Notes under the pieces: generated by a model
The model's input: the letters and a program-made list of their open reading frames with translations, nothing else
Told to the model about the DNA's origin: nothing
The model's database searches: none
Program-made: the position numbers and the translations under genes
Assembly (NCBI GenBank): GCA_013214575.1
Contig: JABSSD010000034.1
Span: 1 to 40,978 of the forward strand
Reading direction: 5' to 3'
Origin: Paracoccaceae bacterium
Lineage (GTDB): Bacteria; Pseudomonadota; Alphaproteobacteria; Rhodobacterales; Rhodobacteraceae
DNA length: 40,978 nt
Part shown: in pieces, positions 12,227-34,835 of the stretch
Layout: every line of letters starts with the position of its first letter
How positions within the stretch are numbered: position 1 is the first letter of the stretch

Positions 12227-13285
12227 TCAGCGAACGCCAGGTGCGTGCAATTGTGAATAGGAAAGGGTTTCGTTTGCAGGCGGCTTGCCCAAAATTGGTT
12301 GAATATATTGCAGCTCGTTCACCGGTGCGCCCGAGATGCGTTTCAGCAGCAGGTCCGCCAGCCTTTCACCCGCTTCCGACAGATCCTCGTAGAGGCTGGG
12401 TACCTTTGGGCGCACCAGATCAAAGACACCAGAAGTCTGCTTGACCAATAGCTGGACGTCCTGACCCGGAACCAGCCCCAAATCCTGGATAGCAGCAAGC
12501 GCGGCAAGGCCGGAGACATCGCCGGGAAGAACCAGCCCGTCTGGAGCATTCGGTGCGGTGAACCGTTTGAGAATATTGGCCGAAATGGTATCAGCATTGC
12601 TATCCAGAGAGATGCCATCGAGGATTTCATAATCTATACCCGCCGCTCGGACTGCTGTCATGAAGCCGTGCAACAAGTGCTGACGAAAGGTGAGCTGTTC
12701 GGGTGGTAGCAAAATGCCTAACCGTTTGGCACCTCGATTGATCAGGGTTTCCGCCGCCTGGCGGGCAAAAGCATAGTTGTCACAATCCACAAAAGGATGC
12801 GGCGTCGCCAGCTCTGAACGGCCATGCGACACAAAAGGGAAATCCGCTTCGAGCAGGAATTTGATACGGTTGTCTTCAGGCATGGTGCGCGAAAATATGA
12901 TCCCGTCGGCCAGTTTATCGCGGACCACACGCTGGATCTGGTCAGCCGATTTATCTGGGCCAAAATCAGGCAACACCACTAGATGATAACCGGTATTTTC
13001 CAACCGTTCGCTGATGCCCCGGATCAAAAACGTGCCAAACCCAAGGATTTCTTCGTGAGGTGGCAGGATCAGATTGATCACTTGCGTGCGCCCGGTCCGT
13101 AGGCGTTGGGCTGCGCGATCCGGCGAATAGCCAAGCTCTTTCGCCATCTTTTGCACCAAAGCCCGAGTCTCTTCTGCCATCCGCGGATCATTCGCCAGAG
13201 CGCGCGAAACAGCCCCCACGGAAATCCCCATTTTTGCAGCGATGGTGCGCTGTGTTGGGCGTTTGGTCTTTGATGGTTCTGACAT
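12227..13285 (-). CDS. LacI-family transcriptional regulator
   Basis: A 352-residue repressor. The N-terminal helix-turn-helix TIAAKMGISVGAVSRALAND is followed by a hinge helix region SPDRAAQRLRTGRT and a periplasmic-binding-protein-like sugar domain (INLILPPHEEILGFG, then DGLVLPGDVSG). It is divergent from the transporter operon and co-directional with the isomerase, so it probably represses both until sugar is bound. The candidate operator is the palindrome at 13373-13387. Confidence 0.9.
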   Translation of the reverse strand: MSEPSKTKRPTQRTIAAKMGISVGAVSRALANDPRMAEETRALVQKMAKELGYSPDRAAQRLRTGRTQVINLILPPHEEILGFGTFLIRGISERLENTGYHLVVLPDFGPDKSADQIQRVVRDKLADGIIFSRTMPEDNRIKFLLEADFPFVSHGRSELATPHPFVDCDNYAFARQAAETLINRGAKRLGILLPPEQLTFRQHLLHGFMTAVRAAGIDYEILDGISLDSNADTISANILKRFTAPNAPDGLVLPGDVSGLAALAAIQDLGLVPGQDVQLLVKQTSGVFDLVRPKVPSLYEDLSEAGERLADLLLKRISGAPVNELQYIQPILGKPPANETLSYSQLHAPGVR

Positions 13286-13372
13286 AACTCACTGCTCTAA
13301 AGGTGTCTGACATGGTAATTTATTACGATTTAACAGGCAATCCCCTCGAAAGAAAATTATCATGACTTGCCA

Positions 13373-13387
13373 ACATTTCCGAAATGT
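13373..13387. promoter_or_regulatory. Candidate operator palindrome between lacI-type gene and transporter
   Basis: ACATTTCCGAAATGT is symmetric in its 6-bp arms around a 3-bp centre. It sits 49 bp upstream of the predicted transporter -35 element and 88 bp from the repressor start. LacI-family sites usually have a central CG with even symmetry, so this odd-centred palindrome is only a candidate. Confidence 0.35.
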
Positions 13388-13435
13388 CCGTATTTTACAT
13401 GATGATTGTGGCAAAGTGGGAGCGATTCATGAGCC

Positions 13436-13466
13436 TTGACAGACTTATCTATTTTAACGTTATAAA
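13436..13466 (+). promoter_or_regulatory. Predicted promoter of the sugar ABC operon
   Basis: A perfect TTGACA at 13436-13441 is followed by TATAAA at 13461-13466 (19-bp spacer) or TTATAA at 13460-13465 (18-bp spacer). A strong ribosome-binding site GGGAGGA at 13484-13490 precedes the ATG at 13495, giving a leader of about 20 nt. Confidence 0.55.
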
Positions 13467-13494
13467 TAGTCATGGATTTTTCTGGGAGGAAATT

Positions 13495-14733
13495 ATGAAA
13501 CTCAAACAACTGATGGCCAGCGCGGCGCTTGTCGCTCTCACTTCGGGATCCGCCTACGCTGAAGACGTAGAAGTCCTGCATTGGTGGACGTCTGGCGGCG
13601 AAGCGGCGGCCTTGAATGTATTGAAGGATAATCTGGCGGGCCAAGATATTGGCTGGGTTGATATGCCGGTTGCTGGCGGCGGCGGCGAGGCCGCAATGAC
13701 AACGCTGCGCGCCCGCGTCACTGCAGGCGACGCGCCAACGGCGGTGCAGATGCTAGGCTTTGACATTATTGACTGGGCCAACGAAGACGTTCTGGGCAAC
13801 CTCAACGAAGTAGCCGCAGCCGAAGGTTGGGACGCGGTTGTTCCCGAGGCACTGCAGTTCTTTTCCAAGCACGATGGCAACTGGATCGCGGCGCCTGTGA
13901 ACGTTCACTCGACCAACTGGGTCTGGATCAGCAAGTCGGCGCTGGATGCGACCGGCCTTGGGGAGCCCACAAGCTGGGATGAGTTGGTCGCTGTTCTAGA
14001 CGCGATGAAGGCCAATGGCATCACGCCGCTGGCGCATGGTGGTCAGGCCTGGCAGGACGCCACTATCTTTGATGCAGTGGTGCTCAGCCTTGGCGATGAT
14101 TTCTACAAATCGGCGCTGATTGACCTGGATGCAGACGCATTGGGCGGCGCGACAATGGTCGAAGCCTTCCAACGCATGGACACCCTGCGCGGCTATGTGG
14201 ACGATAACTTCTCGGGTCGTGACTGGAACCTTGCCTCGTCGATGGTGATCAATGGCGAAGCCGGCATGCAGATGATGGGTGACTGGGCAAAGGGTGAGTT
14301 CCTGCGCGCAGATCAGAAACCCGGCGAGGACTTTGTCTGCATCCGCTTCCCTGGAACTCAGGGCGCGGTCACCTTCAACTCTGACCAGTTTGTCATGTTT
14401 AAAGTCGATGAAGGCAACAAAGCGCAATTGGCCATGGCCTCAGCCGTGATGGACCCGGTCTTCCAATCCGCGTTCAACGTGGTCAAAGGTTCGGTGCCGG
14501 CACGCACAGACGTGCCAAACACCGACTTTGATGACTGCGGCAAAAAAGGCATGGTGGATTTGGCCGACGCTGGTGACAACGGGCGTCTGTTTGGTTCGAT
14601 GGCGCATGGTCACTCGGTGCCAGCCTCGGTGAAGAACGCAATTTATGACGTCGTCACCGCCCACTTCAACGGCGAATACGACGCCGAGACTGCGGCGCAG
14701 GAAATGGTCAACGCAGTGGAATCCGCGATGTAA
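13495..14733 (+). CDS. CUT1-family sugar-binding protein (glucose/mannose type)
   Basis: A 412-residue periplasmic solute-binding protein. I chose the ATG at 13495 because it follows GGGAGGA and gives a clean 22-residue signal peptide ending in AYA before EDVEVLHWW; an in-frame ATG 111 bp upstream has no such support. The mature start [19 protein letters not shown] and the middle segment [18 protein letters not shown] resemble the glucose/mannose-binding proteins of Pseudomonas GtsA type and Thermus. It delivers sugar to the two permeases encoded downstream. Two strong hairpins follow the stop, as is common where the binding protein must be made in excess over the membrane subunits. Confidence 0.88.
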
Positions 14734-21688: not shown

Positions 21689-23058
<1,370 letters not shown>

Positions 23059-23060
23059 CT

Positions 23061-23693
23061 TACCATCGCTTCGCAAATAGCACGGCAGATGTTGAAGACC
23101 TGTTGGCAGCTCGGGGTGTGGTTGTCAGCCGGGAAGCGATCCGGCTGTGGGTCAATCGCTTTGGCCGACACTTCGCAGATTGCATTCGACGGGATCGTCC
23201 GCTGCCGAACGACAAGTGGCACATGGACGAAGTTGTGATCACGATCCGTGACAAGAAACATTGGCTGTGGCGTGCGATCGACGCGAATGGAGACGTTCTC
23301 GATATTCTTGTACAAACCCGCCGGAATGCCAAAGCTGCCAAGCGGATTTTCCAAAGACTGGTTGCACGGTTTGGCGAACCAAGGGTCGTCATCACCGACA
23401 AATTGCGCAGTTATATCAAACCGATTAAAACACTGGCCCCGGACGCTGACCACCGGGCCCACAAAGGCCTAAACAATGCGATCGAAGTCTCGCACCAGCC
23501 CACCCGTAAACGAGAGAAAATAATTGGCCGGTTCAAATCTCACCGGCAGGCTCAGAGGTTTCTATCCGCGCATGACCAGATCAACCTTATTTTTCGCCCC
23601 CGCCGCTATCAACTCACCGCAACCTCATACCGCCACGCCCGCTCCGATGCGTTCAGCCTCTGGGCCGAATATTCCGCTGAAATGGTGGCCTGA
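23061..23693 (+). pseudogene. ISb (second IS6-like type) transposase, 5'-truncated
   Basis: The frame starts directly at the IS6a right end with YHRFANSTADVEDLLAARGV and continues through the DDE core: HMDEVVITIRDKKHWLWRAI (first Asp), VVITDKLRSYIKPI (second Asp) and NNAIEVSHQPTRKREK (Glu). Compared with the full copy at 35160-35870, about 26 N-terminal residues and the left terminal repeat are missing. The ISb right repeat AACAACTTGGCAATACCC remains at 23728-23745. The IS is therefore one-ended and defective. Confidence 0.88.
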
Positions 23694-23899: not shown

Positions 23900-23943
23900 T
23901 TCATACCAAATGGTTTGACCTATTGGTATGAAATATGCATAGT
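23900..23943 (+). promoter_or_regulatory. Nested palindrome overlapping the predicted promoter of the catabolic operon
   Basis: TTCATACCAA (23900-23909) and TTGGTATGAA (23923-23932) are exact inverse arms; the 13 bp between them contain a further GGT...ACC symmetry, so the whole 33 bp is close to symmetric. Reading across it gives two overlapping ACCAnnTGGT-type units (ACCAAATGGT and ACCTATTGGT) that resemble the core of the RutR consensus TTGACCANNTGGTCAA. TTGACC (23915-23920) with a 17-bp spacer to CATAGT (23938-23943) is a plausible promoter. A RutR-like regulator is encoded in the operon at 30733, so autoregulation is likely. The rest of 23792-24023 shows no gene. Confidence 0.55.
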
Positions 23944-24023
23944 TGACTCATCTAATGTGAGGGATCGGCAATGAAACGGAACCATTTATGGTCGGAGGCA
24001 GTCGAAATCTCTGTGCTTCAACT

Positions 24024-24824
24024 ATGAAACGTCAATGGTCTGATTACTCGAGCCAAGCCTTTGCACAGCTTGACCGTGATCGACTGATCGCGGTGCTGCC
24101 AGTGGGGGCAATTGAGCAGCACGGCCCGCATCTACCGATGTCGGTGGATGCCTGCGTTGCGGATGGGCTCGTCGATATCCTGTCGCAAAAACTGCCAGAG
24201 GCAAGCCCGGTCCTGTTTCTGCCCACGCAAGCCATCTGTAAAAGTAATGAACACCTGCGCTATCCCGGAACGCTGACTTTATCGGCCGAGACGCTGATCC
24301 GGGTCTGGACCGAGATTGGCGCCTGCGTGGCCCGATCTGGGGTGCGCAAAATGGTGCTGCTGAACAGTCACGGCGGCAATATTTCGACCATGGATATTGT
24401 CGCCAGAGAGCTGCGGGTAAATCATGACATGATGGTGTTCTCGGTAAATTGGTTCGGACAGGGCATGCCCGAAGGGGTCTATTCTGAGACCGAAACCCGC
24501 TTTGGTATTCACGCAGGCGACATGGAGACCTCGGTGATGCTGGCGCTGGATCCCGGTAACGTCGACATGAGCCAAGCGCAGGACTTTCGCTCGCGTGGGC
24601 AGGACTTGGCTGAGGATTACCAGCATTTATCGCTGGCAGGTGAGGCAAAACCCGGCTGGCAAATACAGGATATGAATCCGTATGGTGCCTGCGGCGAAGC
24701 GCATCTTGCGACTGCGGAAAAAGGCCAGACCACCTTGGATTTTGCCACTGACAAGCTGGTCGAAGTCCTCAATGAAATCGACCAACTTCCTGTGTCGTGG
24801 CTCGACGAGAAACCTGCATGGTGA
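24024..24824 (+). CDS. Creatininase-family amidohydrolase
   Basis: A 266-residue metal-dependent amidohydrolase. The N-terminal motif LPVGAIEQHGPHLPMSVDA supplies the expected metal ligands Glu31, His33 and Asp42; His116 is in LLNSHGGN and Glu168 in HAGDMETSVM. True creatininase has His-Tyr-Glu at the fourth site, whereas NSHGGN is typical of the wider family (mycofactocin and formamide-type deformylases), so creatinine is not assured as substrate. I chose the ATG at 24024 because family similarity starts there; an in-frame ATG at 23988 is possible and no clear ribosome-binding site decides. First gene of a nine-gene operon; the transporter ATPase starts 4 bp after its stop. Confidence 0.85.
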   Translation: MKRQWSDYSSQAFAQLDRDRLIAVLPVGAIEQHGPHLPMSVDACVADGLVDILSQKLPEASPVLFLPTQAICKSNEHLRYPGTLTLSAETLIRVWTEIGACVARSGVRKMVLLNSHGGNISTMDIVARELRVNHDMMVFSVNWFGQGMPEGVYSETETRFGIHAGDMETSVMLALDPGNVDMSQAQDFRSRGQDLAEDYQHLSLAGEAKPGWQIQDMNPYGACGEAHLATAEKGQTTLDFATDKLVEVLNEIDQLPVSWLDEKPAW

Positions 24825-24828
24825 TGAC

Positions 24829-25629
24829 ATGAATACCGAAAATAACTCAGGGGTTGAGGCCCCGATTCAGATTGAAATGTCCGGTGTCGACAAGGTATTC
24901 GGCAATGGGACGATCGCTGTCCGGGGGTTGAACCTGACAGTCCAGCAGGGCGAATTTGTCAGTTTTCTTGGCCCGTCGGGCTGTGGGAAAAGCACCGCTC
25001 TTAAGATGATCTCGGGGCTTTTGTCGCATTCTGCCGGCGAGATCACGGTCAACGGCCATCCCCCAGGGCAAAGCCAGGACATTGGCTATGTGTTTCAAGA
25101 AGCAACGCTGATGCCTTGGGCCACGGTGTTTGACAATGTCTATCTACCCCTGCGGCTGAAAGGGGTCTCCCGCCCCGACGCGCAGGTCGACGTCGAAGCC
25201 GCCCTGGCATCGGTGGGCCTGTCAAAATTCAATGACTCATATCCGCGGGAATTGTCAGGCGGCATGAAAATGCGGGTCTCGATTGCCCGGGCCATGGTGA
25301 CCAAGCCAAAGCTGCTGCTGATGGATGAACCGTTTGCAGCCCTGGACGAGATGACACGGTCCAGATTGAACAACGATGTCATGGCGCTGTGGAAAAAGCG
25401 GGATCTGACGGTGATCTTTGTCACCCATTCGGTCTTTGAATCGGTTTACCTGTCTAGCCGCGTGGTGGTGATGGCCGCCCGCCCGGGGCGGGTGGTGAAC
25501 GAGATTGCGCAGCACGACAACTATCCCCGAACCGAACAATACCGCACGACCGCCGCCTATGCCGAAAATTGCCGCGTCGTCAGTCAGGCGCTAGAGGAGA
25601 CAATGGATCATGTCGATATCAACCACTGA
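24829..25629 (+). CDS. ABC transporter ATPase (SsuB/TauB/ThiZ-like)
   Basis: A 266-residue nucleotide-binding subunit. Walker A is GPSGCGKST, signature LSGGMKMRVSIARAM, Walker B LLLMDEPFAALDE and switch VTHSVFESVYLSSR; the FQEATLMPWATVFDN block and this switch are typical of nitrate/sulfonate/taurine and thiamine-precursor importers. I chose ATG 24829 just after the creatininase-like gene; earlier in-frame starts lie inside that gene. The permease gene overlaps its 3' end by 20 bp. Confidence 0.92.
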   Translation: MNTENNSGVEAPIQIEMSGVDKVFGNGTIAVRGLNLTVQQGEFVSFLGPSGCGKSTALKMISGLLSHSAGEITVNGHPPGQSQDIGYVFQEATLMPWATVFDNVYLPLRLKGVSRPDAQVDVEAALASVGLSKFNDSYPRELSGGMKMRVSIARAMVTKPKLLLMDEPFAALDEMTRSRLNNDVMALWKKRDLTVIFVTHSVFESVYLSSRVVVMAARPGRVVNEIAQHDNYPRTEQYRTTAAYAENCRVVSQALEETMDHVDINH

Positions 25630-26458
25630 CCCTACCGGGATATCCATTGAAAAAAGAATGCGTCGGCACGCCCAATTTGATCGGCTGCTGCGCCTTGTCA
25701 TTCCGGTACTCACTTTGCTTAGCGCCGTGGCTATGTGGGAGTTTCTGGTCTGGTACCATGAGGTGCCGCACTATTTGATCCCAGCGCCCAGCCGGATTGC
25801 CGCCACTTTGATCACCGATTGGTGGTCGCTGATGGGATCCATGTGGTTCACCGTCAAATTGACGCTTATGTCCTTGGCGCTTGCGATCATTGGCGGCGTT
25901 GCCTTGGGCACGGTGTTTGCTATGTCCCGGGTGGTCGAGATTAGCCTGTTTCCCTTTGCGGTGATCCTGCAAGTGACTCCGGTTGTGGCCATCGCCCCAT
26001 TGATCCTGATCTACGTTCCGAACACGTTTTATGCGCTGCTGATCTGCGCCTGGATCATGGCATTTTTCCCTATCCTGTCCAGCACCGCGATCGGTCTACG
26101 CAGTGCAGATCACAATTTGCGCGACATGTTTACCATGTACCGGGCCAGCCCCTGGCAGCGCCTTCGGTACTTGCTGATCCCATCCGCCTTGCCGTATTTC
26201 ATGGCCGCCCTGAAGATTGCCGGTGGCCTGGCGCTGATCGGTGCCGTTGTGGCCGAATTCGTCGCTGGCACGGCGGGACAGAACACGGGATTGGCATCGC
26301 GCATCCTGGAATCTTCCTTCAGAAGTGAAATTCCGCGAATGTTTGCGGCTTTGTTTTTGGTCTCGGTCCTCGGCATCATCATTTTCCTTATCACCAGCTG
26401 GCTGAGCAAAGCCGTTCTTGGCCATTGGCATGAGAGTGAAATTAAGCGGGAAAGGTGA
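25610..26458 (+). CDS. ABC transporter permease (SsuC/ThiX-like)
   Basis: A 282-residue inner-membrane permease with about six hydrophobic segments. The coupling loop reads MYRASPWQRLRYLLIPSALP, and VVAEFVAGTAGQNTGLASRI near the C-terminus is typical of BPD_transp_1 SsuC-type proteins. It presumably acts as a homodimer with the upstream ATPase and the binding protein at 29069. The start lies 20 bp inside the ATPase gene. Confidence 0.9.
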   Translation: MSISTTDPTGISIEKRMRRHAQFDRLLRLVIPVLTLLSAVAMWEFLVWYHEVPHYLIPAPSRIAATLITDWWSLMGSMWFTVKLTLMSLALAIIGGVALGTVFAMSRVVEISLFPFAVILQVTPVVAIAPLILIYVPNTFYALLICAWIMAFFPILSSTAIGLRSADHNLRDMFTMYRASPWQRLRYLLIPSALPYFMAALKIAGGLALIGAVVAEFVAGTAGQNTGLASRILESSFRSEIPRMFAALFLVSVLGIIIFLITSWLSKAVLGHWHESEIKRER

Positions 26459-26462
26459 TCAA

Positions 26463-27656
26463 ATGGCCTATGACACGGATCAAATCACTGTAGTGCGCGG
26501 GGTCGCCGTGGCTGGACAAACTGGCCGCTATGATCTGGAAATTGTGCAGGGGCTAATTGCCTCAATGACCTCGGTTCCCGAAGGGCATGGTGGTTTGATC
26601 CTGCCCTTAATGGCCGATGCGCATGTTCACCTGGATAAGACCCTGACCCAAGGCAGGCTGCATGGGCGTCCCAACACGCTATTTGAGGCAATAGAACTGG
26701 CCCAGTCGGACAAGGTGAATTGGACCCGTGAAGACCTGCGTGCCCGGGCCACCAGTGCCCTGAAAAAGGCCTATGCACATGGAACGGGTGTCATGCGCAG
26801 CCATGTGGATTGGGTTGAACCCGGAGTGCCACTGCCCTGGGAGATATTGACCGAACTTCGGGAAGAGTGGCGGGGCCGGGTTGAGCTGCAACTGGCGGCG
26901 TTGATGCCGCTGGATCTGGTGCCCGAGGCCGGGGCCGCCGTGGCCAAACGTGTTGCGGCTGATGGCGGGGTGCTTGGGGCGTTTGTGTATCGCAATGATA
27001 TGCTGGTGACCAAAGTCTCGCAGCTTTTCGACCTGGCGGAACAGCATGATCTGGATCTGGATTTCCACGTCGACGAAGGGCTGGACCCCGAGGCTCAGGG
27101 CATTGACGTGATCATCGCCGAGACCGCCCAGCGCGCCTATAGCGGACGGGTATTATGTGGCCATGGCTGCGCGCTGTCGGTGCGCCCTAAACAGGTGGTG
27201 CAAGATCTGCTGGAACGGGCCGCCCGCGCCGGCGTGGCGCTGTGTGTATTGCCGACCACCAACAGCTATCTTCAGGATGCTACGCCCGGACGCACCCCAC
27301 GGTTGCGCGGGATAGCGCCGCTGCACGAGGCCCGTGCGGCCGGTGTCGAGGTGCTGCTGGCCTCGGACAATTGTCGCGACGCGTTCTATCCGCATGGCGA
27401 TTATGACCTGATGGATGTGTACCGGTTTGCGGTGCTGGCGGGGCGTCTGGATGCCGGCAGCTGGCTGTCGTCGATCACCACGATACCAGCCCGAATTTGT
27501 GGCCAGGCAACAGAAATATCCCCCGGCGCAAGCGCTGATTTCATTCACTACGACGCCACGGACATTGACGATATTATCAGTCGTCCCCGCGTGGCGCGAA
27601 CCGTTTGGCGACAGGGTCGCCCATTGAGCGCTGACCCTGAAGGAGAGACAAAATGA
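26463..27656 (+). CDS. Cytosine-deaminase-like amidohydrolase
   Basis: A 397-residue metal-dependent hydrolase of the CodA/AtzC-like branch of the amidohydrolase superfamily. Metal and catalytic residues map well: His54 and His56 in DAHVHLDK, His202 and Glu205 in DFHVDEG, His234 in GHGCAL and Asp302 in LASDNCRD. It should remove an amino or open an amide bond of a cyclic nitrogen compound. I chose the ATG at 26463, after GGGAAAGG; an upstream in-frame start lies inside the permease gene. The stop overlaps the FAD oxidase start by 4 bp. Position between transporter genes ties it to the imported substrate. Confidence 0.85.
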   Translation: MAYDTDQITVVRGVAVAGQTGRYDLEIVQGLIASMTSVPEGHGGLILPLMADAHVHLDKTLTQGRLHGRPNTLFEAIELAQSDKVNWTREDLRARATSALKKAYAHGTGVMRSHVDWVEPGVPLPWEILTELREEWRGRVELQLAALMPLDLVPEAGAAVAKRVAADGGVLGAFVYRNDMLVTKVSQLFDLAEQHDLDLDFHVDEGLDPEAQGIDVIIAETAQRAYSGRVLCGHGCALSVRPKQVVQDLLERAARAGVALCVLPTTNSYLQDATPGRTPRLRGIAPLHEARAAGVEVLLASDNCRDAFYPHGDYDLMDVYRFAVLAGRLDAGSWLSSITTIPARICGQATEISPGASADFIHYDATDIDDIISRPRVARTVWRQGRPLSADPEGETK

Positions 27657-29035
27657 ACGAACACACCGGCCCAAATGCGGCAATTGACTGGGTGAGTTTT
27701 CGCAATGATATCGACGGCATTCCCACCTATGACGACGCTAAATTTCTTGCGGCGCGGTCCAGGGACTACTTTTGGTACAGCCCAATATTAAGCGAAAAAC
27801 TGGACGGACTCGTCGGTGAGTTGATCGTGGTGCCGCGCAGTCAGGACGAGGTTATTCGGGTTGCCGCAGCTGTGGCGCGCCATCGTATCCCACTGACCCT
27901 GCGCGGCGGCGGCACTGGCAACTACGGCCAATGTGTGCCGCTGGAAGGCGGAGTGGTGATGGATCTGACCCGGCTAGATAGAGTGATCGACGTTCAGCCG
28001 GGTCATGTGCGGGTCGAAGCTGGTGCGCGGATTTCACGGCTGGACGACGCGGTCCGCGAGTCTGGCCAAGAGCTGTTGATGTTCCCCTCGACCCGGCAGA
28101 TGGCCACCATCGGCGGTTTTCTGGCTGGTGGGTCTGGTGGCATCGGCTCGTTGCGCCACGGCATGTTGCGAGATCCGGGCAATACGCGCTACGTTAAAAT
28201 CATTACCGTCGAACCCAAGCCACAGATCATTGAGCTATACGGCGAGGACACGCAGAAAATTCATCATGCTTATGGGACCAATGGTATTATCGTCGAGCTG
28301 GAGGTGGCACTGACACCGGCCACCGATTGGATCCACTGCGCGGCGCTGTTTGATGGCTATGACCAGGCCCTGATCTTTGCCCAATCCGCCCAGGAAGAAG
28401 GGCTGGATTGTTATCTTCTGACGACCGTCGAACGCCGGTTTGCACCCTATTATACAAAATTCGGCGACCTGTTTCCCACGAACCGCGACGCAGTGTTTGC
28501 CATGGTTGCGCCAAGTGAGATGGATCGATTTACGGCCCGGGTCGAAGCGATGGGCGCACGGATCTCTTTTGCGATGACCAAGGCGGAAATTCACGAAAAC
28601 AAGCTGCAGCCGGCCTATGAGTGCGGCTGGAACCACACCACATTACAGGCCCTCAAAGCTGACAAAGGCTGGACCTATTTGCAGGTCGCCTATCCGCGTC
28701 CCTTTGATCCAAAACTGGTGATGCAGCAAATGGAACGCTATGGCGACAGGTTGTTTTGGCATCACGAAATGGCCCGTATGGAGGGCGAGATCCAGATCTT
28801 TGCGCTGCCGCTGGTGCGCTGGACCAACAAGGACGACATGTACGCGCTGATGGCCGAACTCGAAGAGCAGGACGGCTGCACCATCTTTGACCCGCATGTT
28901 GTGACCATCGAGGACGGTGGCATGAAGCAAATCGACTCTGCGCAAATCGATTTCAAAAAACAGGCCGATCCTTATGGCTTGATGAACCCGGGAAAAACCC
29001 GTGGCTGGACCGCAGATATGGCCCGGCAAGACTAA
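27653..29035 (+). CDS. FAD-linked oxidase (PCMH/GlcD type)
   Basis: A 460-residue flavoprotein. Residues about 55-215 are a PCMH-type FAD-binding domain with VPRSQDEVIRVAAAV, the diphosphate loop RGGGTGNYGQ, MDLTRLDRVIDVQPG and GGFLAGGSGGIGSL. The C-terminus ends with DPYGLMNPGKTRGW, as in FAD_oxidase_C enzymes such as D-lactate or glycolate oxidases. No His-x-x-x-Cys bicovalent FAD motif is evident. It probably oxidises a hydroxyl or C-N bond generated by one of the two hydrolases. Coupled by 4-bp overlap to the upstream amidohydrolase. Confidence 0.86.
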   Translation: MNEHTGPNAAIDWVSFRNDIDGIPTYDDAKFLAARSRDYFWYSPILSEKLDGLVGELIVVPRSQDEVIRVAAAVARHRIPLTLRGGGTGNYGQCVPLEGGVVMDLTRLDRVIDVQPGHVRVEAGARISRLDDAVRESGQELLMFPSTRQMATIGGFLAGGSGGIGSLRHGMLRDPGNTRYVKIITVEPKPQIIELYGEDTQKIHHAYGTNGIIVELEVALTPATDWIHCAALFDGYDQALIFAQSAQEEGLDCYLLTTVERRFAPYYTKFGDLFPTNRDAVFAMVAPSEMDRFTARVEAMGARISFAMTKAEIHENKLQPAYECGWNHTTLQALKADKGWTYLQVAYPRPFDPKLVMQQMERYGDRLFWHHEMARMEGEIQIFALPLVRWTNKDDMYALMAELEEQDGCTIFDPHVVTIEDGGMKQIDSAQIDFKKQADPYGLMNPGKTRGWTADMARQD

Positions 29036-29068
29036 ATCCAACAGTTTCTAGCGAACAGGGAGAATGTA

Positions 29069-30085
29069 ATGAAACATCTAATCTCAAAGGCCATTGCCGT
29101 TGCGGCAACCGTGATGACGGCCGGGATGGCCATGGCAGGTGACAAGGTTGTCATGGGCACCAATTGGTTGGCGCAGGCCGGTCACGGCGGATTCTATCAG
29201 GCGATTGCCGACGGCACCTATGAAAAATACGGGCTGGACGTTGAAATCATGATGGGCGGCCCACAGTTGAACAACCGCCCAATGCTGGCGGCTGGGCGTC
29301 TTGATTTCCTGATGGCGGGCAACCTGCTGTTGTCGTTTGACCATGTGCGCAACGAAATCCCCACCCGTGTTGTCGCGGCGTTTTTCCAGAAAGACCCGCA
29401 GGCCCTGATGGCACATACCGGAGCCTACGACGGGTTCAAAGGTCTGACCGAAGCCAAAACTGTGCTGATGTCGAAAGACGCGCAATTCAGTTTCTGGAAA
29501 TGGTTGGTTGATGTGCATGGCTTCAACAATGAACAACTGCGCCCCTACGGCTATAATCTGGCGCAGTTCCTAGGCGATGAAAACATGGTGCAACAAGCCT
29601 ATGGCACGGCCGAGCCGCTGTATGCTGCGGCCCAGGGGGCCTCGGTCGATACGTTCCTGTTGGCTGATTACGGCTGGAGCACCTATTCCACCACACTGGA
29701 AACCCGGCAGCAGCTGATCGATGAAAACCCCGAATTGGTGCAGCGTTTTGTCAATGCGACCATCGAAGGGTGGTACAACTTTATCTACGGGGATCGCGCT
29801 GCGGCTTATGCCCTGATTATTGCGTCAAACCCGGAAATGACTGCCGCGAAACTGGACACTGAAATGGAGCAGATGGAGGAGTTGGGCATCATTGATGTCG
29901 CGGGCGCGTTGGAGCAGGGAATTGGTGCCATGAGCGAACAGCGTATTGCCGATTTCTACAACATCGCGATCGCTGCAGGGATTGTCGAAGACGGCAGCGT
30001 CGACCTGTCTAAGGTGGCAGACTATAGCTTTGTGAACAAAGGTCATGGCTTAGATATCAAAGCCACTTTGACCGCAAGTAACTAA
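29069..30085 (+). CDS. Periplasmic binding protein (NMT1/THI5/SsuA-like)
   Basis: A 338-residue solute-binding protein with a signal peptide of about 23 residues ending in AMA before GDKVVMGTNW. The start of the mature protein, NWLAQAGHGGFYQAIADGTY then EKYGLDVEIMMGG, is the NMT1/THI5-like pattern seen in ThiY and related binders of pyrimidine precursors, sulfonates and other small ring compounds. AGGGAGAA precedes the ATG. It completes the importer begun at 24829. The pyrimidine-type relatives agree with the cytosine-deaminase-like enzyme and RutR-like regulator, although the ligand is not proven. Confidence 0.88.
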   Translation: MKHLISKAIAVAATVMTAGMAMAGDKVVMGTNWLAQAGHGGFYQAIADGTYEKYGLDVEIMMGGPQLNNRPMLAAGRLDFLMAGNLLLSFDHVRNEIPTRVVAAFFQKDPQALMAHTGAYDGFKGLTEAKTVLMSKDAQFSFWKWLVDVHGFNNEQLRPYGYNLAQFLGDENMVQQAYGTAEPLYAAAQGASVDTFLLADYGWSTYSTTLETRQQLIDENPELVQRFVNATIEGWYNFIYGDRAAAYALIIASNPEMTAAKLDTEMEQMEELGIIDVAGALEQGIGAMSEQRIADFYNIAIAAGIVEDGSVDLSKVADYSFVNKGHGLDIKATLTASN

Positions 30086-30099
30086 GCAGGGAGCAGGTC

Positions 30100-30732
30100 G
30101 TGCGAAACCTCATTGTATTTTGCCATCCAAGCAAAGACAGTTATAGCGCGAGCCTGCTTCTGACGGCCCGCACCGCCCTGGAACAGTCAGGACACGAGGT
30201 GCGGGTCATTGATCTTTACGAAGAGGGGTTCAACCCGGTCCTGAGCCAAGATGAATGGGATAGCTACATTCCCGATACCCAGGCCAACATTGCCGGGGTG
30301 CAATCCCATGTGGATGCCATGCAATGGGCCGAGGCATTGGTGCTGGTCTATCCCACCTGGATGTATGGCCCGCCGGCCATGTTGAAGGGCTGGCTAGAAC
30401 GAGTCTGGCTTCCCGGCATCGCGTTTGACATTGCCCCGGCCAAGGGCAAACGCGCTACTGGACTTTTGCGCAATATCCGGCAGTTTACCGTTGTCACCAC
30501 TTCGGGGTCGCCGTGGTGGTGGCTGCGTGTGATCCGCGATCCCGGCCGTAGTATGCTGGCGCGGGGCTATCGCGTGTTGTTCCACCCCCTGTGCAGGGTG
30601 CGGTGGTTGCAATTGCATAATATGAACAATACGACTTTGCGGGACCGGCAACGGTTCCTTGCACGTGTCAAACGGGTCTTTTCACGAAAAGCCTTAGTCT
30701 CTGTCCCGGCCGTGTCATCGATGGAGAAATAG
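30100..30732 (+). CDS. NAD(P)H-dependent oxidoreductase, flavodoxin-like fold
   Basis: A 210-residue protein of the NQO1/KefF/MdaB type. The N-terminal RNLIVFCHPSKDSYSASL is the flavin phosphate-binding region, and LVLVYPTWMYGPPAMLKGWLERV is the conserved central motif. It starts at GTG 30100. Such enzymes reduce quinones or flavins with NAD(P)H; here it might regenerate a reduced flavin or handle a quinone-like intermediate. It is followed without a gap by the TetR gene. Confidence 0.85.
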   Translation: MRNLIVFCHPSKDSYSASLLLTARTALEQSGHEVRVIDLYEEGFNPVLSQDEWDSYIPDTQANIAGVQSHVDAMQWAEALVLVYPTWMYGPPAMLKGWLERVWLPGIAFDIAPAKGKRATGLLRNIRQFTVVTTSGSPWWWLRVIRDPGRSMLARGYRVLFHPLCRVRWLQLHNMNNTTLRDRQRFLARVKRVFSRKALVSVPAVSSMEK

Positions 30733-31368
30733 ATGAAACAAACCCGGAAAAGCAGAGCCGAGATCCGGCAAGCCATCCTGGATGCGGCGATCAGCGAATT
30801 TGCCCGCGAGGGGCTGGAAGGGACATCGACCCAGACCTTGGCTAAAGCGGCAGGGATCACCAAGGCGCAGCTGCATTACTACATTTCCTCAAAAGAGGAG
30901 CTGTACGAGGACACCCTGCTTCATATTGTCGAGCTATGGAAAGGGCTGTTTTTCTTCTCTGCGGACCCTGGGGATCCGGCCCGCGAGATTGCAGATTACA
31001 TCGCGCGCAAAGTGCATCATGCGATCGAGTTTCCCGATGCATCACGGTTGTTTGCCCGCGAGGTCGCGAGGGGCGCTCCGGTGCTGCGCCAGCACTGGGC
31101 CGGGCTACAAGACAATGTCAATTTGGCCTCTGGGGTGATTGAAGGCTGGATTGCCCAGGGGCAGATTCAACCGGTACATCCGGTGATGTTTCAGATGAAC
31201 ATCTGGGCGGTGACCCAGCACTATGCTGAATATGAGGCGCAGGCCCGGTTTCTGCTGGGGACTCCAGACGATGAAAAACTGGACCCAGGCCCAATCATAG
31301 CCGAAGTGACTGAACTGTTCCTAAGGCGCTGCGGATTACAGCCAATCCCCGACGAGGCATCATCATGA
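30733..31368 (+). CDS. TetR-family regulator, RutR-like
   Basis: A 211-residue repressor. The N-terminal helix-turn-helix runs IRQAILDAAISEFAREGLEG, then TLAKAAGITKAQLHYYISSK. The ligand domain resembles the YcdC/RutR C-terminal domain (FPDASRLFAREVARGAPVL and WAVTQHYAEYEAQARFLLG). RutR of E. coli senses uracil and controls pyrimidine breakdown. The gene lies inside the operon, and a RutR-like double site overlaps the operon promoter at 23900-23932. Its stop overlaps the Rid gene by 4 bp. Confidence 0.85.
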   Translation: MKQTRKSRAEIRQAILDAAISEFAREGLEGTSTQTLAKAAGITKAQLHYYISSKEELYEDTLLHIVELWKGLFFFSADPGDPAREIADYIARKVHHAIEFPDASRLFAREVARGAPVLRQHWAGLQDNVNLASGVIEGWIAQGQIQPVHPVMFQMNIWAVTQHYAEYEAQARFLLGTPDDEKLDPGPIIAEVTELFLRRCGLQPIPDEASS

Positions 31369-31751
31369 AAGCCCTAACCCCAACACATGGCGCGGTGACT
31401 TTTGGCGCCTATTCGCCTGGAATTGAACACCATGGGGGGCGGATTGTCCTGACCTCTGGCCAGCTGGCGCTTGCAGCGGATGGAACGGTCCCCTCGAGTG
31501 TTGCCGAGCAGACCAATATCTGTTTGCAGGCCATCGAGGCGATCCTGAGGGAGGCCGGGATGGACCGCAGTCATATCTTGCGGCTGAACGCCTATGTCAC
31601 TGATCGCCGCCATATGGCCGAATACATGGCGGCGCGCGACGCCTTTCTGAGTAACGTTGAACCCAAACCCGCCTCCACACTAATGATTGTGTCGGGTTTT
31701 ACGCGTCCGGAATTTCTGGTCGAGATCGAGGCCCACGCCGGAGAAACCTGA
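31365..31751 (+). CDS. Rid-family (YjgF/RutC-like) protein
   Basis: A 128-residue protein with the Rid fold: GGRIVLTSGQLALAADGTV, the helix ICLQAIEAILREAGMD and the end VEIEAHA. The arginine that RidA uses to bind the substrate carboxylate is Ser104 here (KPASTL), resembling the Asn at the same place in the reductase-Rid fusion of module 1. It therefore belongs to an arginine-less Rid subgroup and may act on a non-carboxylate enamine or imine. Last gene of the operon, followed by a strong hairpin. Confidence 0.88.
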   Translation: MKALTPTHGAVTFGAYSPGIEHHGGRIVLTSGQLALAADGTVPSSVAEQTNICLQAIEAILREAGMDRSHILRLNAYVTDRRHMAEYMAARDAFLSNVEPKPASTLMIVSGFTRPEFLVEIEAHAGET

Positions 31752-31807: not shown

Positions 31808-34204
31808 TTAACTGGACTGCAGAATCTTACGGAACGGTCGCCCAACCGTTAGCCCCTGAACTTTTTCGACAATGGCAGCGGCGTCGATGCAGAAATGGCG
31901 ATATAGTTCGACGATGCTTCCTGTCTGGCCAAAATGCTCGACCCCCAATGGGATGGTTTGGTGACCCTCGACACTGCCCAGCCAAGACAGGGTGGCCGGG
32001 TGTCCGTCGATCACCGTGACCAATTTGCAGTCGCGCGGCAGGTCTTGCATCAGTTTCTCGATATGAGATTGCGCCGCCGTTGTCCCGCGTGAGCGCGCCC
32101 GTTGGGCCGCCGTCCAACCGGCGTTCAGCCGATCGGCTGAGGTCACTGCCAGCACGCCAATATCACGCCGTCCTTCGGCCAGAGCTCCGGCCGCCTTGAT
32201 TGCTTCGGGGGCGACGGCACCTTGATAGGCAATCACCACCTCGCAGTTCGGTCCCGGTGGGCGCAGCCAATAGGCGCCGTCGATGGCGCCTTGACGAAAG
32301 GCATCATCGTGACGCTGGCCGGGCTGCTCAATCGGGTTGGTGGTCAGGCGCAGATAGACCGAGCCGCCAGTTTCATCCCTCAGCCAGGTGCGCTCATCCG
32401 CATTGCCCTCACCGTCGCGTTGCAGATAGTCAAAAGACCACTGCATAATCACCGCCAACTCGTCGGCGAAGGCTGGTTCAAAGGCGGCGAGACCGTCCTG
32501 GCTCATGCCGATCAGCGGTGTGCCGATGGATTGATGCGCCCCCCCCTCGGGGGCGAGGGTGACACCCGAGGGGGTGCCGACAATCATGAACCGTGCGTCC
32601 TGATAGCAAGCATAGTTCATCGCATCCAAACCGCGACAGACAAAGGGGTCATAGACGGTGCCAATTGGGATCAATCGCTTGCCAAACAGGCTATGCGACA
32701 GGCCCGCAGCACCCAGCAACAAGAACAGGTTCATCTCGGCGATGCCCAGCTCGATGTGCTGACCTTCCGGAGTGAACTCCCATTTGGCGGTGGAGGGAAT
32801 CCGATGCTCGATAAAGGCGTCCGACTGCGCGGTGCGGGCGAACAGTTTGCGCCGATTGACCCAAGGCCCCAGATTTGTGGTGCCGGTGACATCGGGCGAG
32901 GTGGTCATGATGCGGCTGGCCAGAATGCTGTCGCCCTTGGACAGATTATCCAGCACCTTGCCAAAGGCCATCTGGGTCGAGATCTCGCGGTCCGAGCTAA
33001 GCGTGATGGCGGGCACCGGCAGTTTGTCATCGCTAAACCGGCGGCGACCCTTGGCGAAAAACGGCGTTTTATCCAGGAAGGATTGCACCGAAGCCGGGTC
33101 TTGGGCGGTGGCTAGAGGTTGCCATTCCGCGCCCGGTTCTACGCCCATGTGGGACTGCCAAGCCGCGAACTGGGTCTTGTTCATTAGCCCGCCGTGATTG
33201 TCCTTATGACCTGCGATTGGCGTGCCCCAGCCTTTGATAGTATAGGCCAGAAAACACACCGGACGGTCGTGATCTATAGCGGCAAATGTCTCGGCCATGG
33301 TGGCGACACAATTGCCGCCCAGGTTTTCCATCAGCTCGGCCAACTCAGCATCACTGCGCGCCTCGATCAGCGCAGACACATTGCCTTGATCGCCCAAATC
33401 CCGCAACAGCCGGTCGCGCCAGATCGCACCGCCCATGAAGGTCAGCGCCGAATACTCTTGGTTCGAGCAGCCATCGATCCAATCCCGCAGAGCTGCGCCG
33501 CCGGGTTCGGCAAAGGCGGCCCGCTGCAGCGCGCCGTATTTCACCCGCACTACATCCCAGCCAAAGGCGTCAAAGATTTTTTCAACCCGTTCAAACAGGC
33601 CTTCGCGTACAATCCCGTCCAGCGATTGACGGTTGTAATCGACCACCCACCAGGTGTTGCGCAGGTCGTTTTTCCAACCCTCTTGCAGCGCCTCGTAGAT
33701 ATTGCCCTCGTCCATTTCGGCGTCACCCACCAGCGCCACCATGCGACCTAGGTCCCAGTCACCGCCCCAGGATTTGGCCTGGATGTAATCCTGCACCAGC
33801 GAGGCAAAAGAGGTGATCGCCACCCCCAGCCCAACTGAACCAGTGGAGAAATCCACGTCGTCAATATCCTTGGTGCGCGAGGGGTAGCTTTGCACGCCAC
33901 CAAAGCCGCGAAAGTTTTCCATTTTTTCACGGGTCTGGTTGCCCATCAGATACTGAATGGCGTGAAACACTGGCGAGGCATGTGGCTTTACCGCCACCCG
34001 GTCTTGGGGGCGTAATGCCGAGAAATACAGAGCCGTCATGATCGACACCATCGACGCCGAGGAGGCCTGATGGCCACCGACCTTGATGCCATCCGCCTTA
34101 GGCCGGATGTGGTTGGCATGATGGATCATCCAATGCGACAGCCATAACAGCCGTTGTTCAATGGTCTTCAGGTGATGCGCATCGGTGATGCCTTCATTAG
34201 TCAT
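31808..34204 (-). CDS. Pyruvate dehydrogenase E1 (AceE/MdeB)-like thiamine-diphosphate enzyme
   Basis: A 798-residue transketolase-superfamily protein with the layout of homodimeric 2-oxoacid dehydrogenase E1. The thiamine-diphosphate/Mg motif is GDAEMDEGNIYEAL (about 160-173) with the second part VVDYNRQSLDG; His45 (GGHQASS) and His75/His81 are cofactor-site candidates. The pyrimidine-binding half has HIELGIAEMNLFLLLGAAGL. It is shorter than E. coli AceE (887). Pseudomonas MdeB, a 2-oxobutyrate dehydrogenase, is an AceE relative also controlled by an Lrp-type gene, which matches the arrangement here, but no methionine gamma-lyase is adjacent. I chose ATG 34204 over a TTG 12 bp upstream. Confidence 0.85.
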   Translation of the reverse strand: MTNEGITDAHHLKTIEQRLLWLSHWMIHHANHIRPKADGIKVGGHQASSASMVSIMTALYFSALRPQDRVAVKPHASPVFHAIQYLMGNQTREKMENFRGFGGVQSYPSRTKDIDDVDFSTGSVGLGVAITSFASLVQDYIQAKSWGGDWDLGRMVALVGDAEMDEGNIYEALQEGWKNDLRNTWWVVDYNRQSLDGIVREGLFERVEKIFDAFGWDVVRVKYGALQRAAFAEPGGAALRDWIDGCSNQEYSALTFMGGAIWRDRLLRDLGDQGNVSALIEARSDAELAELMENLGGNCVATMAETFAAIDHDRPVCFLAYTIKGWGTPIAGHKDNHGGLMNKTQFAAWQSHMGVEPGAEWQPLATAQDPASVQSFLDKTPFFAKGRRRFSDDKLPVPAITLSSDREISTQMAFGKVLDNLSKGDSILASRIMTTSPDVTGTTNLGPWVNRRKLFARTAQSDAFIEHRIPSTAKWEFTPEGQHIELGIAEMNLFLLLGAAGLSHSLFGKRLIPIGTVYDPFVCRGLDAMNYACYQDARFMIVGTPSGVTLAPEGGAHQSIGTPLIGMSQDGLAAFEPAFADELAVIMQWSFDYLQRDGEGNADERTWLRDETGGSVYLRLTTNPIEQPGQRHDDAFRQGAIDGAYWLRPPGPNCEVVIAYQGAVAPEAIKAAGALAEGRRDIGVLAVTSADRLNAGWTAAQRARSRGTTAAQSHIEKLMQDLPRDCKLVTVIDGHPATLSWLGSVEGHQTIPLGVEHFGQTGSIVELYRHFCIDAAAIVEKVQGLTVGRPFRKILQSS

Positions 34205-34355
34205 AGTCAGCCCCAAGCCATGGATCGCCGGATGTTCCGCGTTCCTGTTGATGCAACTTTAGCTGGAACCAGTGCAGCGTGTCCTACCGAATAAATCGGT
34301 TTTCCGCTTTAGATCAGGTATGATATGCCGCTGTGAAGAGGGACTGGAGTGTTTT

Positions 34356-34835
34356 GTGCCGAAACTTGATTTAGATGCGGTGGATGTCAGGATTCTGCGG
34401 GAGCTGCAGGCGGATTCGAGCCTGACAAATGTCCAGCTCGCTGACCGGGTCGGCCTGTCGGCCTCTCCCTGTCTGGTGCGGGTACGGGCCCTAACCAGCT
34501 CTGGGTTGATCAAGCGGCAAGTGGCGCTTCTTGACCCGCAGCTGTTAGGACTGAAGCTAACGGTCTTTATCAACGTTTCATTGGTCAATCAGTCCGATCC
34601 CGTTTTGCAGAGATTTCAGGCCGCAATTGATAGGTGCTCTGAGGTTTTGGAGTGCTATTTGATGACGGGCGACTCCGACTATCTGCTACGTGTGATCGTA
34701 GCTGATGTGGCTGAGCTGAGAAATTTTGTTTTAAACCGGCTGACGACGGTTGAAGGGGTCTCGGGGATACGATCTTCGATAGCGTTGGATCGAGTGAAAT
34801 ATGAAACGGCTTTGCCAATAAAGGACCCCGCATAA
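34356..34835 (+). CDS. Lrp/AsnC-family regulator
   Basis: A 159-residue regulator. It starts at GTG 34356 (PKLDLDAVDVRILRELQAD), 6-8 bp after a GGAG; longer in-frame starts would add an unrelated leader. The helix-turn-helix is NVQLADRVGLSASPCLVRVR and the C-terminal RAM domain carries CYLMTGDSDYLLRVIVAD, which binds amino acids or related ligands. It is divergent from the AceE/MdeB-like gene with a 151-bp gap and is its likely regulator. Confidence 0.9.
   Translation: MPKLDLDAVDVRILRELQADSSLTNVQLADRVGLSASPCLVRVRALTSSGLIKRQVALLDPQLLGLKLTVFINVSLVNQSDPVLQRFQAAIDRCSEVLECYLMTGDSDYLLRVIVADVAELRNFVLNRLTTVEGVSGIRSSIALDRVKYETALPIKDPA

Follow-up and report, generated by a model that had tools for sequence, protein, structure and literature searches.

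In the window analysed here, a stretch of 40,978 nucleotides that comprises one whole contig (C147; JABSSD010000034.1) of the 5.59-Mb genome of a Paracoccaceae bacterium (GenBank GCA_013214575.1), nine genes follow one another on the + strand between positions 23988 and 31751, and we estimate with a probability of about 0.7 that together they import a pteridine and dismantle it. Such a cluster would most likely supply nitrogen, and perhaps carbon, from pterins, whose ring system occurs in folate and related cofactors. We consider a pteridine, and not uracil or creatinine, the most probable substrate because of the kinship of the cluster's flavoenzyme with the solved structure PDB 6V42 and because of the layout of amidohydrolase and Rid genes in Variovorax. 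Bacterial breakdown of folate and other pterins is poorly known, and in the main text of a 2026 review of pterin signals neither "catabol" nor "pterin deaminase" occurs (PMC13259868); the genes described here provide candidates for uptake, for opening of the ring and for the steps in between.

Gene organisation

The nine genes are, in order:

23988..24824, + strand: CRN, creatininase-family amidohydrolase (PF02633, 241.5 bits)
24829..25629, + strand: ATPase of an ATP-binding cassette (ABC) importer (PF00005; an ATG ahead of the conserved part taken as start, the longest open reading frame beginning at 24682)
25610..26458, + strand: permease of the ABC importer (PF00528; 20-bp overlap with the ATPase gene)
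26463..27656, + strand: AMH, cytosine-deaminase-like amidohydrolase (Amidohydro_3; PRK07583, 350.5 bits, cut-off 403; longest open reading frame from 26418)
27653..29035, + strand: FAO, FAD_binding_4 flavoenzyme (402 bits over residues 18-453 to PDB 6V42)
29069..30085, + strand: SBP, NMT1/THI5-type periplasmic binding protein of the importer (PF09084, 68.4 bits)
30100..30732, + strand: NQO, flavodoxin-fold NAD(P)H oxidoreductase (Flavodoxin_2; PF02525, PF03358)
30733..31368, + strand: TetR-family regulator with a YcdC/RutR-type C-terminal domain (TetR_C_3; PF08362, 99.2 bits)
31365..31751, + strand: RID, Rid-family protein (Ribonuc_L-PSP; PF01042, 73.3 bits)

A preliminary description of this DNA had placed these families in one operon, and scans with Pfam and curated models upheld all nine assignments. 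It had also spoken of overlaps of 4-20 bp. With the start codons that we chose for the ATPase (24829) and AMH (26463) genes, on which the junction lengths depend, the eight junctions read +4, overlap 20, +4, overlap 4, +33, +14, 0 and overlap 4 bp, so that the statement is right for three of them (20, 4 and 4 bp) and wrong for the other five, which are gaps of 0-33 bp.

A flavoenzyme akin to a presumed folate-catabolism oxygenase

The sole close relative of FAO in the PDB is 6V42/6V43, which is matched with 402 bits over residues 18-453, the next match having 57.8 bits; the deposited title of 6V42 reads "Crystal structure of the flavin oxygenase with cofactor bound involved in folate catabolism". 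An AlphaFold model of FAO built from an alignment of 39 sequences reached a mean predicted local distance difference test (pLDDT) score of 90.3 and replaced a single-sequence model of only 32.3. When the former was used in a Foldseek search, 6V42 came first (E-value 1.8e-50, template modelling (TM) score 0.93, root mean square deviation 2.1, 43% identity), which points to a shared fold. The C-terminal motifs NHTT, FxPH and GGMK are common to both proteins, and N327-T330, H415, G422-G423 and K425 are invariant in the 39 aligned FAO sequences and present in 6V42. Judged by sequence kinship and the predicted fold, we propose that FAO is a flavin-dependent pteridine oxygenase.

Among the fetched FAOs, 6V42 is nearest to that of Hoeflea sp. 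BAL378 (L091; 86% identity), followed at 74-78% by four from Mesorhizobium and a Rhizobiaceae bacterium (L100, L102, L103, L106). Since the Hoeflea locus, of the type B defined below, has much the same genes as the window (CRN-RID-SBP-ATPase-permease-AMH-FAO-NQO-NQO), the solved enzyme itself very probably comes from a type-B cluster of much the same composition.

The amidohydrolase and the Variovorax pterin deaminase

Amongst the PDB matches of AMH, cytosine deaminases rank best, followed by N-isopropylammelide amidohydrolases, and the blocks HxH, H..E, H and D, which we take to be a metal site of the cytosine deaminase type, are intact in all 16 sequences compared, the window's included. Rid proteins were formerly called endoribonucleases. 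The pterin deaminase published from Variovorax sp. F1 accepts folate and pteroate as substrates; it has 399 amino acids and shares 37.0% identity with Arad3529 of Agrobacterium radiobacter and 76.7% with Vapar5141. In V. paradoxus endoribonuclease genes are located downstream of the pterin deaminase gene, and the fate of the deaminated products was left open in that work (PMC9513972).

The same layout is found in the clusters studied here: in all seven Variovorax loci whose fetched stretch holds an AMH gene (L061, L062, L063, L067, L071, L072, L073), the gene immediately after it, in the same orientation, encodes a Rid protein, an order confirmed by Pfam in L061. The AMH of L073 is 398 amino acids long, and the seven are 73-100% identical to it; no such AMH was found within the fetched stretches of L060, L064, L069, L070 and L075, and in Herbaspirillum (L068) the AMH and Rid genes are more distant. 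Taken together, length, gene neighbour and identity make a strong but indirect case that the AMH of the Variovorax clusters probably corresponds to the published pterin deaminase. The Variovorax AMHs of L061, L063 and L072 share 42-45% identity with the window's AMH and 35-38% with the Rhizobium-type AMHs of L018 and L091, of which that of L018 scores 688 bits on PRK07583 (NF005759; cut-off 403).

Conservation of the cluster

At E <= 1e-20, 13 genomes in a set of 101, made up of the window's genome and 100 relatives, carry relatives of FAO; others were found in 146 plasmid records and in at least 590 genome stretches from bacteria and archaea, the best 80 of which were kept. Many soil and marine Proteobacteria are among the carriers, and the same genes recur around FAO across the loci examined. 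Two large halves emerge from a tree of 112 FAO rows, midpoint-rooted for drawing only. Type A comprises the window, roseobacters, Ochrobactrum-like bacteria and Variovorax, among others, and type B comprises Rhizobium, Mesorhizobium, Klebsiella and Pantoea, among others; four further rows make up a small group C, which is attached to type A. The lists of the three types were drawn by hand from the identity to the window's FAO, and L112 belongs to none of them.

Neighbouring genes were scored within 9 kb of the FAO gene in loci with at least 6 kb on both of its sides, i.e., in 43 type-A loci including the window (12 of 55 dropped), 39 type-B loci (6 of 45 dropped) and two group-C loci (2 of 4 dropped), by BLAST with identity limits that miss divergent copies. 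Around type-A FAO genes, CRN was found in 40 loci, AMH, SBP and the permease in 38 each, the ATPase in 37, TetR in 31, NQO in 19 and RID in 17. The corresponding figures for type B are CRN 37, ATPase 36, AMH, SBP and permease 35 each, NQO 32, RID 28 and LysR 13, and both group-C loci have CRN and AMH and one has RID, with no ABC or NQO genes found. The BLAST limit leads to an undercount of RID: Pfam revealed divergent Rid genes in L035, L058, L061 and L065. Gene-neighbourhood conservation, which the preliminary description had named as a check, is thus borne out, and the nine-gene set is a widely conserved unit and not a chance neighbourhood.

The two halves also differ in their regulators, for which the window's TetR and one Rhizobium LysR served as BLAST queries: TetR lies in 31/43 type-A loci and 1/39 type-B loci, LysR in 0/43 and 13/39, respectively. 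Genes for ferredoxin reductase, for an E1-type protein (see below) and for tetronate catabolism were found almost only around type A.

Tetronate genes beside type-A clusters

A search for recurrent neighbours of the clusters gave genes of the D-erythronate/L-threonate pathway, which adjoin them in Aquamicrobium, Paenochrobactrum, Frigidibacter and Variovorax. By BLAST, DenD, LtnD, OtnK, OtnC and OtnI are all present in L040, L046, L049 and the Variovorax locus L063, and DenD and LtnD in L017 and L039; the seven Variovorax loci named above have OtnI, OtnC and OtnK, and five of them also have DenD, LtnD or both. In L073 the OtnI and AMH genes, which share one strand, overlap by 4 bp according to the predicted starts. 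When ten of the encoded proteins were scanned, a tetronate model was the best match each time and eight exceeded the cut-off (bits, cut-off in brackets at first mention):

Variovorax L063: LtnD 464 (350), DenD 389 (325), OtnK 627 (350), OtnI 380 (325)
Variovorax L061: OtnC 229.8 (250), below the cut-off
Aquamicrobium L049: LtnD 389, DenD 390, OtnK 548, OtnC 302, and OtnI 264.8, below its cut-off of 325

The fetched locus includes OtnK in 10 of 44 genomes, where copy number and genome size would predict 0.19 by chance; this comparison concerns placement only and is uncorrected for kinship. The ten loci represent two arrangements, one alphaproteobacterial and one from Variovorax, and the linkage may go back to as few as two independent events. 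DenD and OtnK exceed their cut-offs in 40 and 34 of the 45 cluster-carrying genomes versus 34 and 25 of the 101 in the set of relatives; since the sets differ in taxonomy, the carriers including many Variovorax and Ochrobactrum, physical linkage alone is used as evidence here.

D-Erythronate and L-threonate differ only at C3, and ring C6 together with a trihydroxypropyl chain corresponds to a four-carbon acid, namely D-erythronate for D-erythro-neopterin and L-threonate for L-threo-monapterin. Neopterin and monapterin differ at the 2'-hydroxyl only (PMC13259868). Cleavage of these two pterins at ring C6 would release the two acids, which suggests neopterin and monapterin as natural substrates. 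We therefore put forward, tentatively and at less than even odds, that type-A clusters form a catabolic pathway for bacterial trihydroxypropyl pterins, in which AMH would deaminate neopterin and monapterin, FAO would cleave the pyrazine ring, and C6 and the side chain would leave as D-erythronate or L-threonate, both to be fed into dihydroxyacetone phosphate via DenD/LtnD. If so, the type-A pathway consumes pterins that serve as signals, and the connection from pterins to four-carbon sugar acids, and hence to the removal of pterin signals, can be tested.

Alternatively, the cluster might be specific for folate or pterin-6-carboxylate like the pathway of 6V42, the tetronate genes being unrelated passengers. 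Such a specificity would agree with the title of 6V42, with the action of the Variovorax F1 deaminase on folate and pteroate (PMC9513972), and with the type-B loci, in which OtnI or OtnC was found near none of 39 and DenD near one. However, the window is of type A, and mere passengers would fit poorly with the OtnK placement in two arrangements and with the overlap of OtnI and AMH in L073; we regard this explanation as less likely than not.

The hydrolases, the regulator and other heterocycles

Beyond the choice between pterins, it has to be considered whether the cluster degrades another nitrogen heterocycle, be it a pyrimidine (uracil, cytosine, thiamine pyrimidine) or creatinine or hydantoin. 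The likeness of AMH to cytosine deaminases, the creatininase family of CRN, the THI5/NMT1 type of SBP and the regulator, whose best NCBIfam match is RutR, all lead in this direction. However, CRN, the only PF02633 match in the genome (E <= 0.001), which aligns with the creatininase 1Q3K over residues 17-199, misses the creatininase equivalog TIGR04448 (103.3 versus 235 bits), the regulator misses RutR (144 versus a cut-off of 368 bits) and RID misses RutC (22 versus 169 bits). In RID the motif PAST stands where YjgF (1QU9) has PARS, a serine being aligned with an arginine that we take to have a functional role in YjgF. The parallel with the Rut pathway in regulator and Rid protein, drawn in the preliminary description, thus holds at the level of superfamilies and fails at that of membership. 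Its claim that the ring is opened by a route other than RutA stands, as the best RutA match in the genome has 42.4 bits at a cut-off of 498.3; likewise, no isochorismatase-type protein (RutB) is found among the nine cluster proteins, a genome-wide search for RutB not having been made. As, in addition, 6V42, the solved protein close to FAO, carries a title that places it in folate catabolism, degradation of another heterocycle appears unlikely. A nitrogen-heterocycle catabolic operon as such is well supported, and pteridines are more likely than the substrates first named (pyrimidines, hydantoins, creatinine and thiamine pyrimidine).

Electron supply

A flavin oxygenase requires reduced flavin. 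NQO has mostly quinone reductases among its 29 PDB matches, and at least one of three reductase types, NQO, ferredoxin-NAD reductase and PDR/VanB-type reductase, is encoded near FAO in 37 of the 43 type-A loci, the ferredoxin reductase being present without NQO in 12 and PDR without NQO in six; a 2Fe-2S ferredoxin gene occurs in six. Amongst the type-B loci, 34 of 39 have one of the three donors, and Klebsiella and Pantoea have PDR without NQO. The reductase families in the related clusters were checked by domain scans. That these reductases replace each other across clusters is as expected for an oxygenase in need of electrons, and such donor exchange, without being proof, fits better with FAO as an oxygenase than as a dehydrogenase.

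FAO could still be a 2-hydroxy-acid dehydrogenase of the D-lactate or glycolate type, passing electrons out via NQO or ferredoxin in a carboxylic-acid pathway. After 6V42, the next Foldseek matches of the FAO model are D-lactate and D-2-hydroxyglutarate dehydrogenases (TM about 0.7, E-value 1.3e-23), and 2-hydroxy-acid dehydrogenase and E1-type genes adjoin some clusters. Yet 6V42 is far closer (1.8e-50 versus 1.3e-23), and the constant partners of FAO are a deaminase-type amidohydrolase and a creatininase-type hydrolase, so that this explanation is improbable.

Two candidates were discarded in this context. An amino-acid oxidase step, suggested by a "DAO" neighbour, was rejected because Pfam identified the neighbour as a ferredoxin-NAD reductase (Pyr_redox_2 and Reductase_C), and a reductase encoded on contig C31 (58% identical) in the genome of the window, with neighbours such as a Cons_hypoth95 methyltransferase and a FemAB-like protein, was not counted as a member of the system.

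The importer

The ATPase gene is kept in place in type-A loci. As SBP belongs to the SsuA/NMT1 superfamily, an ordinary sulfonate- or taurine-type uptake operon with unrelated enzymes comes to mind, but it can be dismissed as extremely improbable: SBP misses the SsuA model (18.6 versus 163.5 bits), no sulfonate monooxygenase or dioxygenase is among the nine genes, and CRN, AMH and FAO stay together in the Rhodobacter/Tabrizicola loci L055-L057, where no cluster ABC gene was found and where a gene of the sulfate-permease (SulP/STAS) type adjoins CRN-AMH-FAO in Tabrizicola, next to CRN (L055, 6134-7897).

Proposed pathway

For the degradation of a pteridine by the nine gene products, we infer the substrate, the order of steps, each reaction and the regulation as follows. 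SBP, ATPase and permease would take up the pteridine; AMH would then strip the 2-amino group from the pterin, giving a lumazine and ammonia; FAO, reduced by NQO, would oxidise the pteridine ring system with O2; CRN might cleave an amide or lactam in the resulting compound by hydrolysis; and RID might hydrolyse an imine or enamine, freeing ammonia. In relatives, FAO would be reduced by ferredoxin reductase/ferredoxin or by a PDR-type reductase. The TetR protein presumably senses the substrate or an intermediate, and two other lineages with type-A clusters may release the C6 side chain as a four-carbon acid that passes into the D-erythronate/L-threonate pathway. What the analysis shows directly is which genes are present, that they are conserved, the families they belong to, a predicted fold for FAO and the modules linked to the cluster. 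If this is true, the database labels "cytosine deaminase" and "creatininase" are wrong in detail for these genes.

Several points weigh against this scheme. The FAO tree places the window's protein and 6V42 in different main halves, and because of this and of the 43% identity the substrate of the window's FAO may differ from that of 6V42, the function of which rests on its deposited title, as a literature search of limited reach gave no paper describing it. The window's AMH stays under the PRK07583 cut-off, and its assignment as a putative pterin deaminase proceeds from protein length, gene neighbour and sequence identity. None of the three electron donors was found in 6/43 type-A, 5/39 type-B and 2/2 group-C loci, and in L055-L057 only CRN, AMH and FAO of the cluster genes were seen. 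No tetronate gene was found in the window, and its genome gave no match to OtnK, the 3-oxo-tetronate kinase, at E <= 1e-90; since OtnK is missing, the four-carbon route is unsupported here, and the genome's two DenD, just over the cut-off of 325 (338 and 331 bits), are on other contigs.

Three further ideas were given up. Homarine catabolism, considered since relatives are marine roseobacters, was dropped once 6V42 had been identified, the literature search having given nothing usable. Urea release, suggested by urea carboxylase and allophanate hydrolase genes by the Rhizobium CB782 cluster, was abandoned as both genes occur in L018 only among the loci searched. M20 peptidases as carboxypeptidase G were uninformative, with 15 matches in the genome and none on the window's contig.

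Adjoining genes and accessory observations

To the right of the cluster lie two accessory genes:

31808..34216, - strand: MdeB-like 2-oxo-acid dehydrogenase E1-type protein (aceE, 176 bits, cut-off 860)
34272..34835, + strand: Lrp/AsnC-type regulator beside the E1-type gene (Lrp model, 131 bits, cut-off 233)

The E1-type gene, convergent with the cluster and paired with the Lrp-type regulator in a manner that resembles loci of Mameliella, Leisingera and Roseateles, adjoins the cluster in 8 of the 43 type-A loci, the window included. Some Rhodobacterales relatives have, like the window, the E1-type gene and some a 2-hydroxy-acid dehydrogenase; the MdeB-like protein is a possible downstream step of the pathway. 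To the left of the cluster there are transposase frames at 22298-23005 (IS6 family by scan) and 23103-23693 (alike by sequence inspection). A ferredoxin-NAD reductase gene is found near the cluster in 14/43 type-A loci, in many of them divergent on this side, and because it often sits there an insertion at 22298-23693 may have replaced it in the window.

Elsewhere in the window, an open reading frame for 491 amino acids at 428-1903 (- strand), adjoined by a GntR/FCD regulator, combines an aldo/keto reductase domain with a C-terminal Rid (Ribonuc_L-PSP) domain and looks like an unusual fusion. Another at 21875-22288, inspected by sequence only, has a His-Arg repeat run ahead of an apparent chemotaxis methylesterase-type domain and is maybe a product of slippage or a pseudogene.

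Among the related loci, two FAO genes from different branches are present in L086, L087, L099, L108, L110, L074 and L076, which might reflect a need for two oxidations or the use of two substrates. A GcvT-type gene (aminomethyltransferase folate-binding domain) lies near the cluster in seven of the 43 type-A loci, all Ochrobactrum-like (L038, L042-L045, L047, L066) and all in one 13-row clade of the FAO tree. In L023 (G020:C1) a 5'-nucleotidase-type gene (Metallophos and 5_nucleotid_C; 12764-14650) is inserted between the CRN and permease genes, and Fe(II)/2-oxoglutarate oxygenase genes occur within or beside the cluster in L115 and L116, of the TauD type in Ruegeria TM1040 and of another type in Paroceanicella.

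Comparison with known systems

The cluster had been called undescribed, which is no longer correct in so far as 6V42 was deposited as a flavin oxygenase of folate catabolism and a pterin deaminase gene beside a Rid gene has been published from Variovorax (PMC9513972); if the cluster degrades pteridines, the pathway is thus already partly known through one structure and one enzyme, and what is new is the type-A form with its TetR regulator, the exchangeable electron donors and the tetronate link.

The homology of the flavin oxygenase 6V42/6V43 with the window's FAO extends along nearly the entire protein (43% identity, TM score 0.93), and the cluster of the nearest fetched relative of 6V42 has CRN, ABC, AMH, FAO, NQO and RID genes like the window; 6V42 differs in belonging to the other half of the FAO tree, where type-B clusters show LysR in 13 of 39 loci and TetR in one. 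The deaminases of Variovorax sp. F1 and Agrobacterium radiobacter K84 (Arad3529) share with AMH the presumed cytosine-deaminase metal site, and the former resembles the Variovorax type-A AMH in length to within one residue (L073) and in the downstream Rid gene. However, identity between the window's AMH and those of the Variovorax loci L061, L063 and L072 is no higher than 42-45%, and the main text on the F1 enzyme contains neither "cluster" nor "ABC transporter", nor was a proposal for a ring-opening enzyme seen there (PMC9513972).

With the Rut pathway (RutA-G, RutR) the window has in common a candidate oxygenase, a reductase, an amidohydrolase, a Rid protein and a TetR regulator whose C-terminal domain is of the same family as in RutR, whereas its genome has no RutA above the cut-off, the RutR and RutC models are missed, the candidate oxygenase is of the FAD_binding_4 family and ring hydrolysis would make use of a creatininase-type enzyme. 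Finally, all five genes of the D-erythronate/L-threonate pathway (DenD, LtnD, OtnI, OtnK, OtnC) stand beside the type-A clusters of L040, L046, L049 and L063, in contrast to the window, where none was found and whose genome holds two DenD without OtnK.

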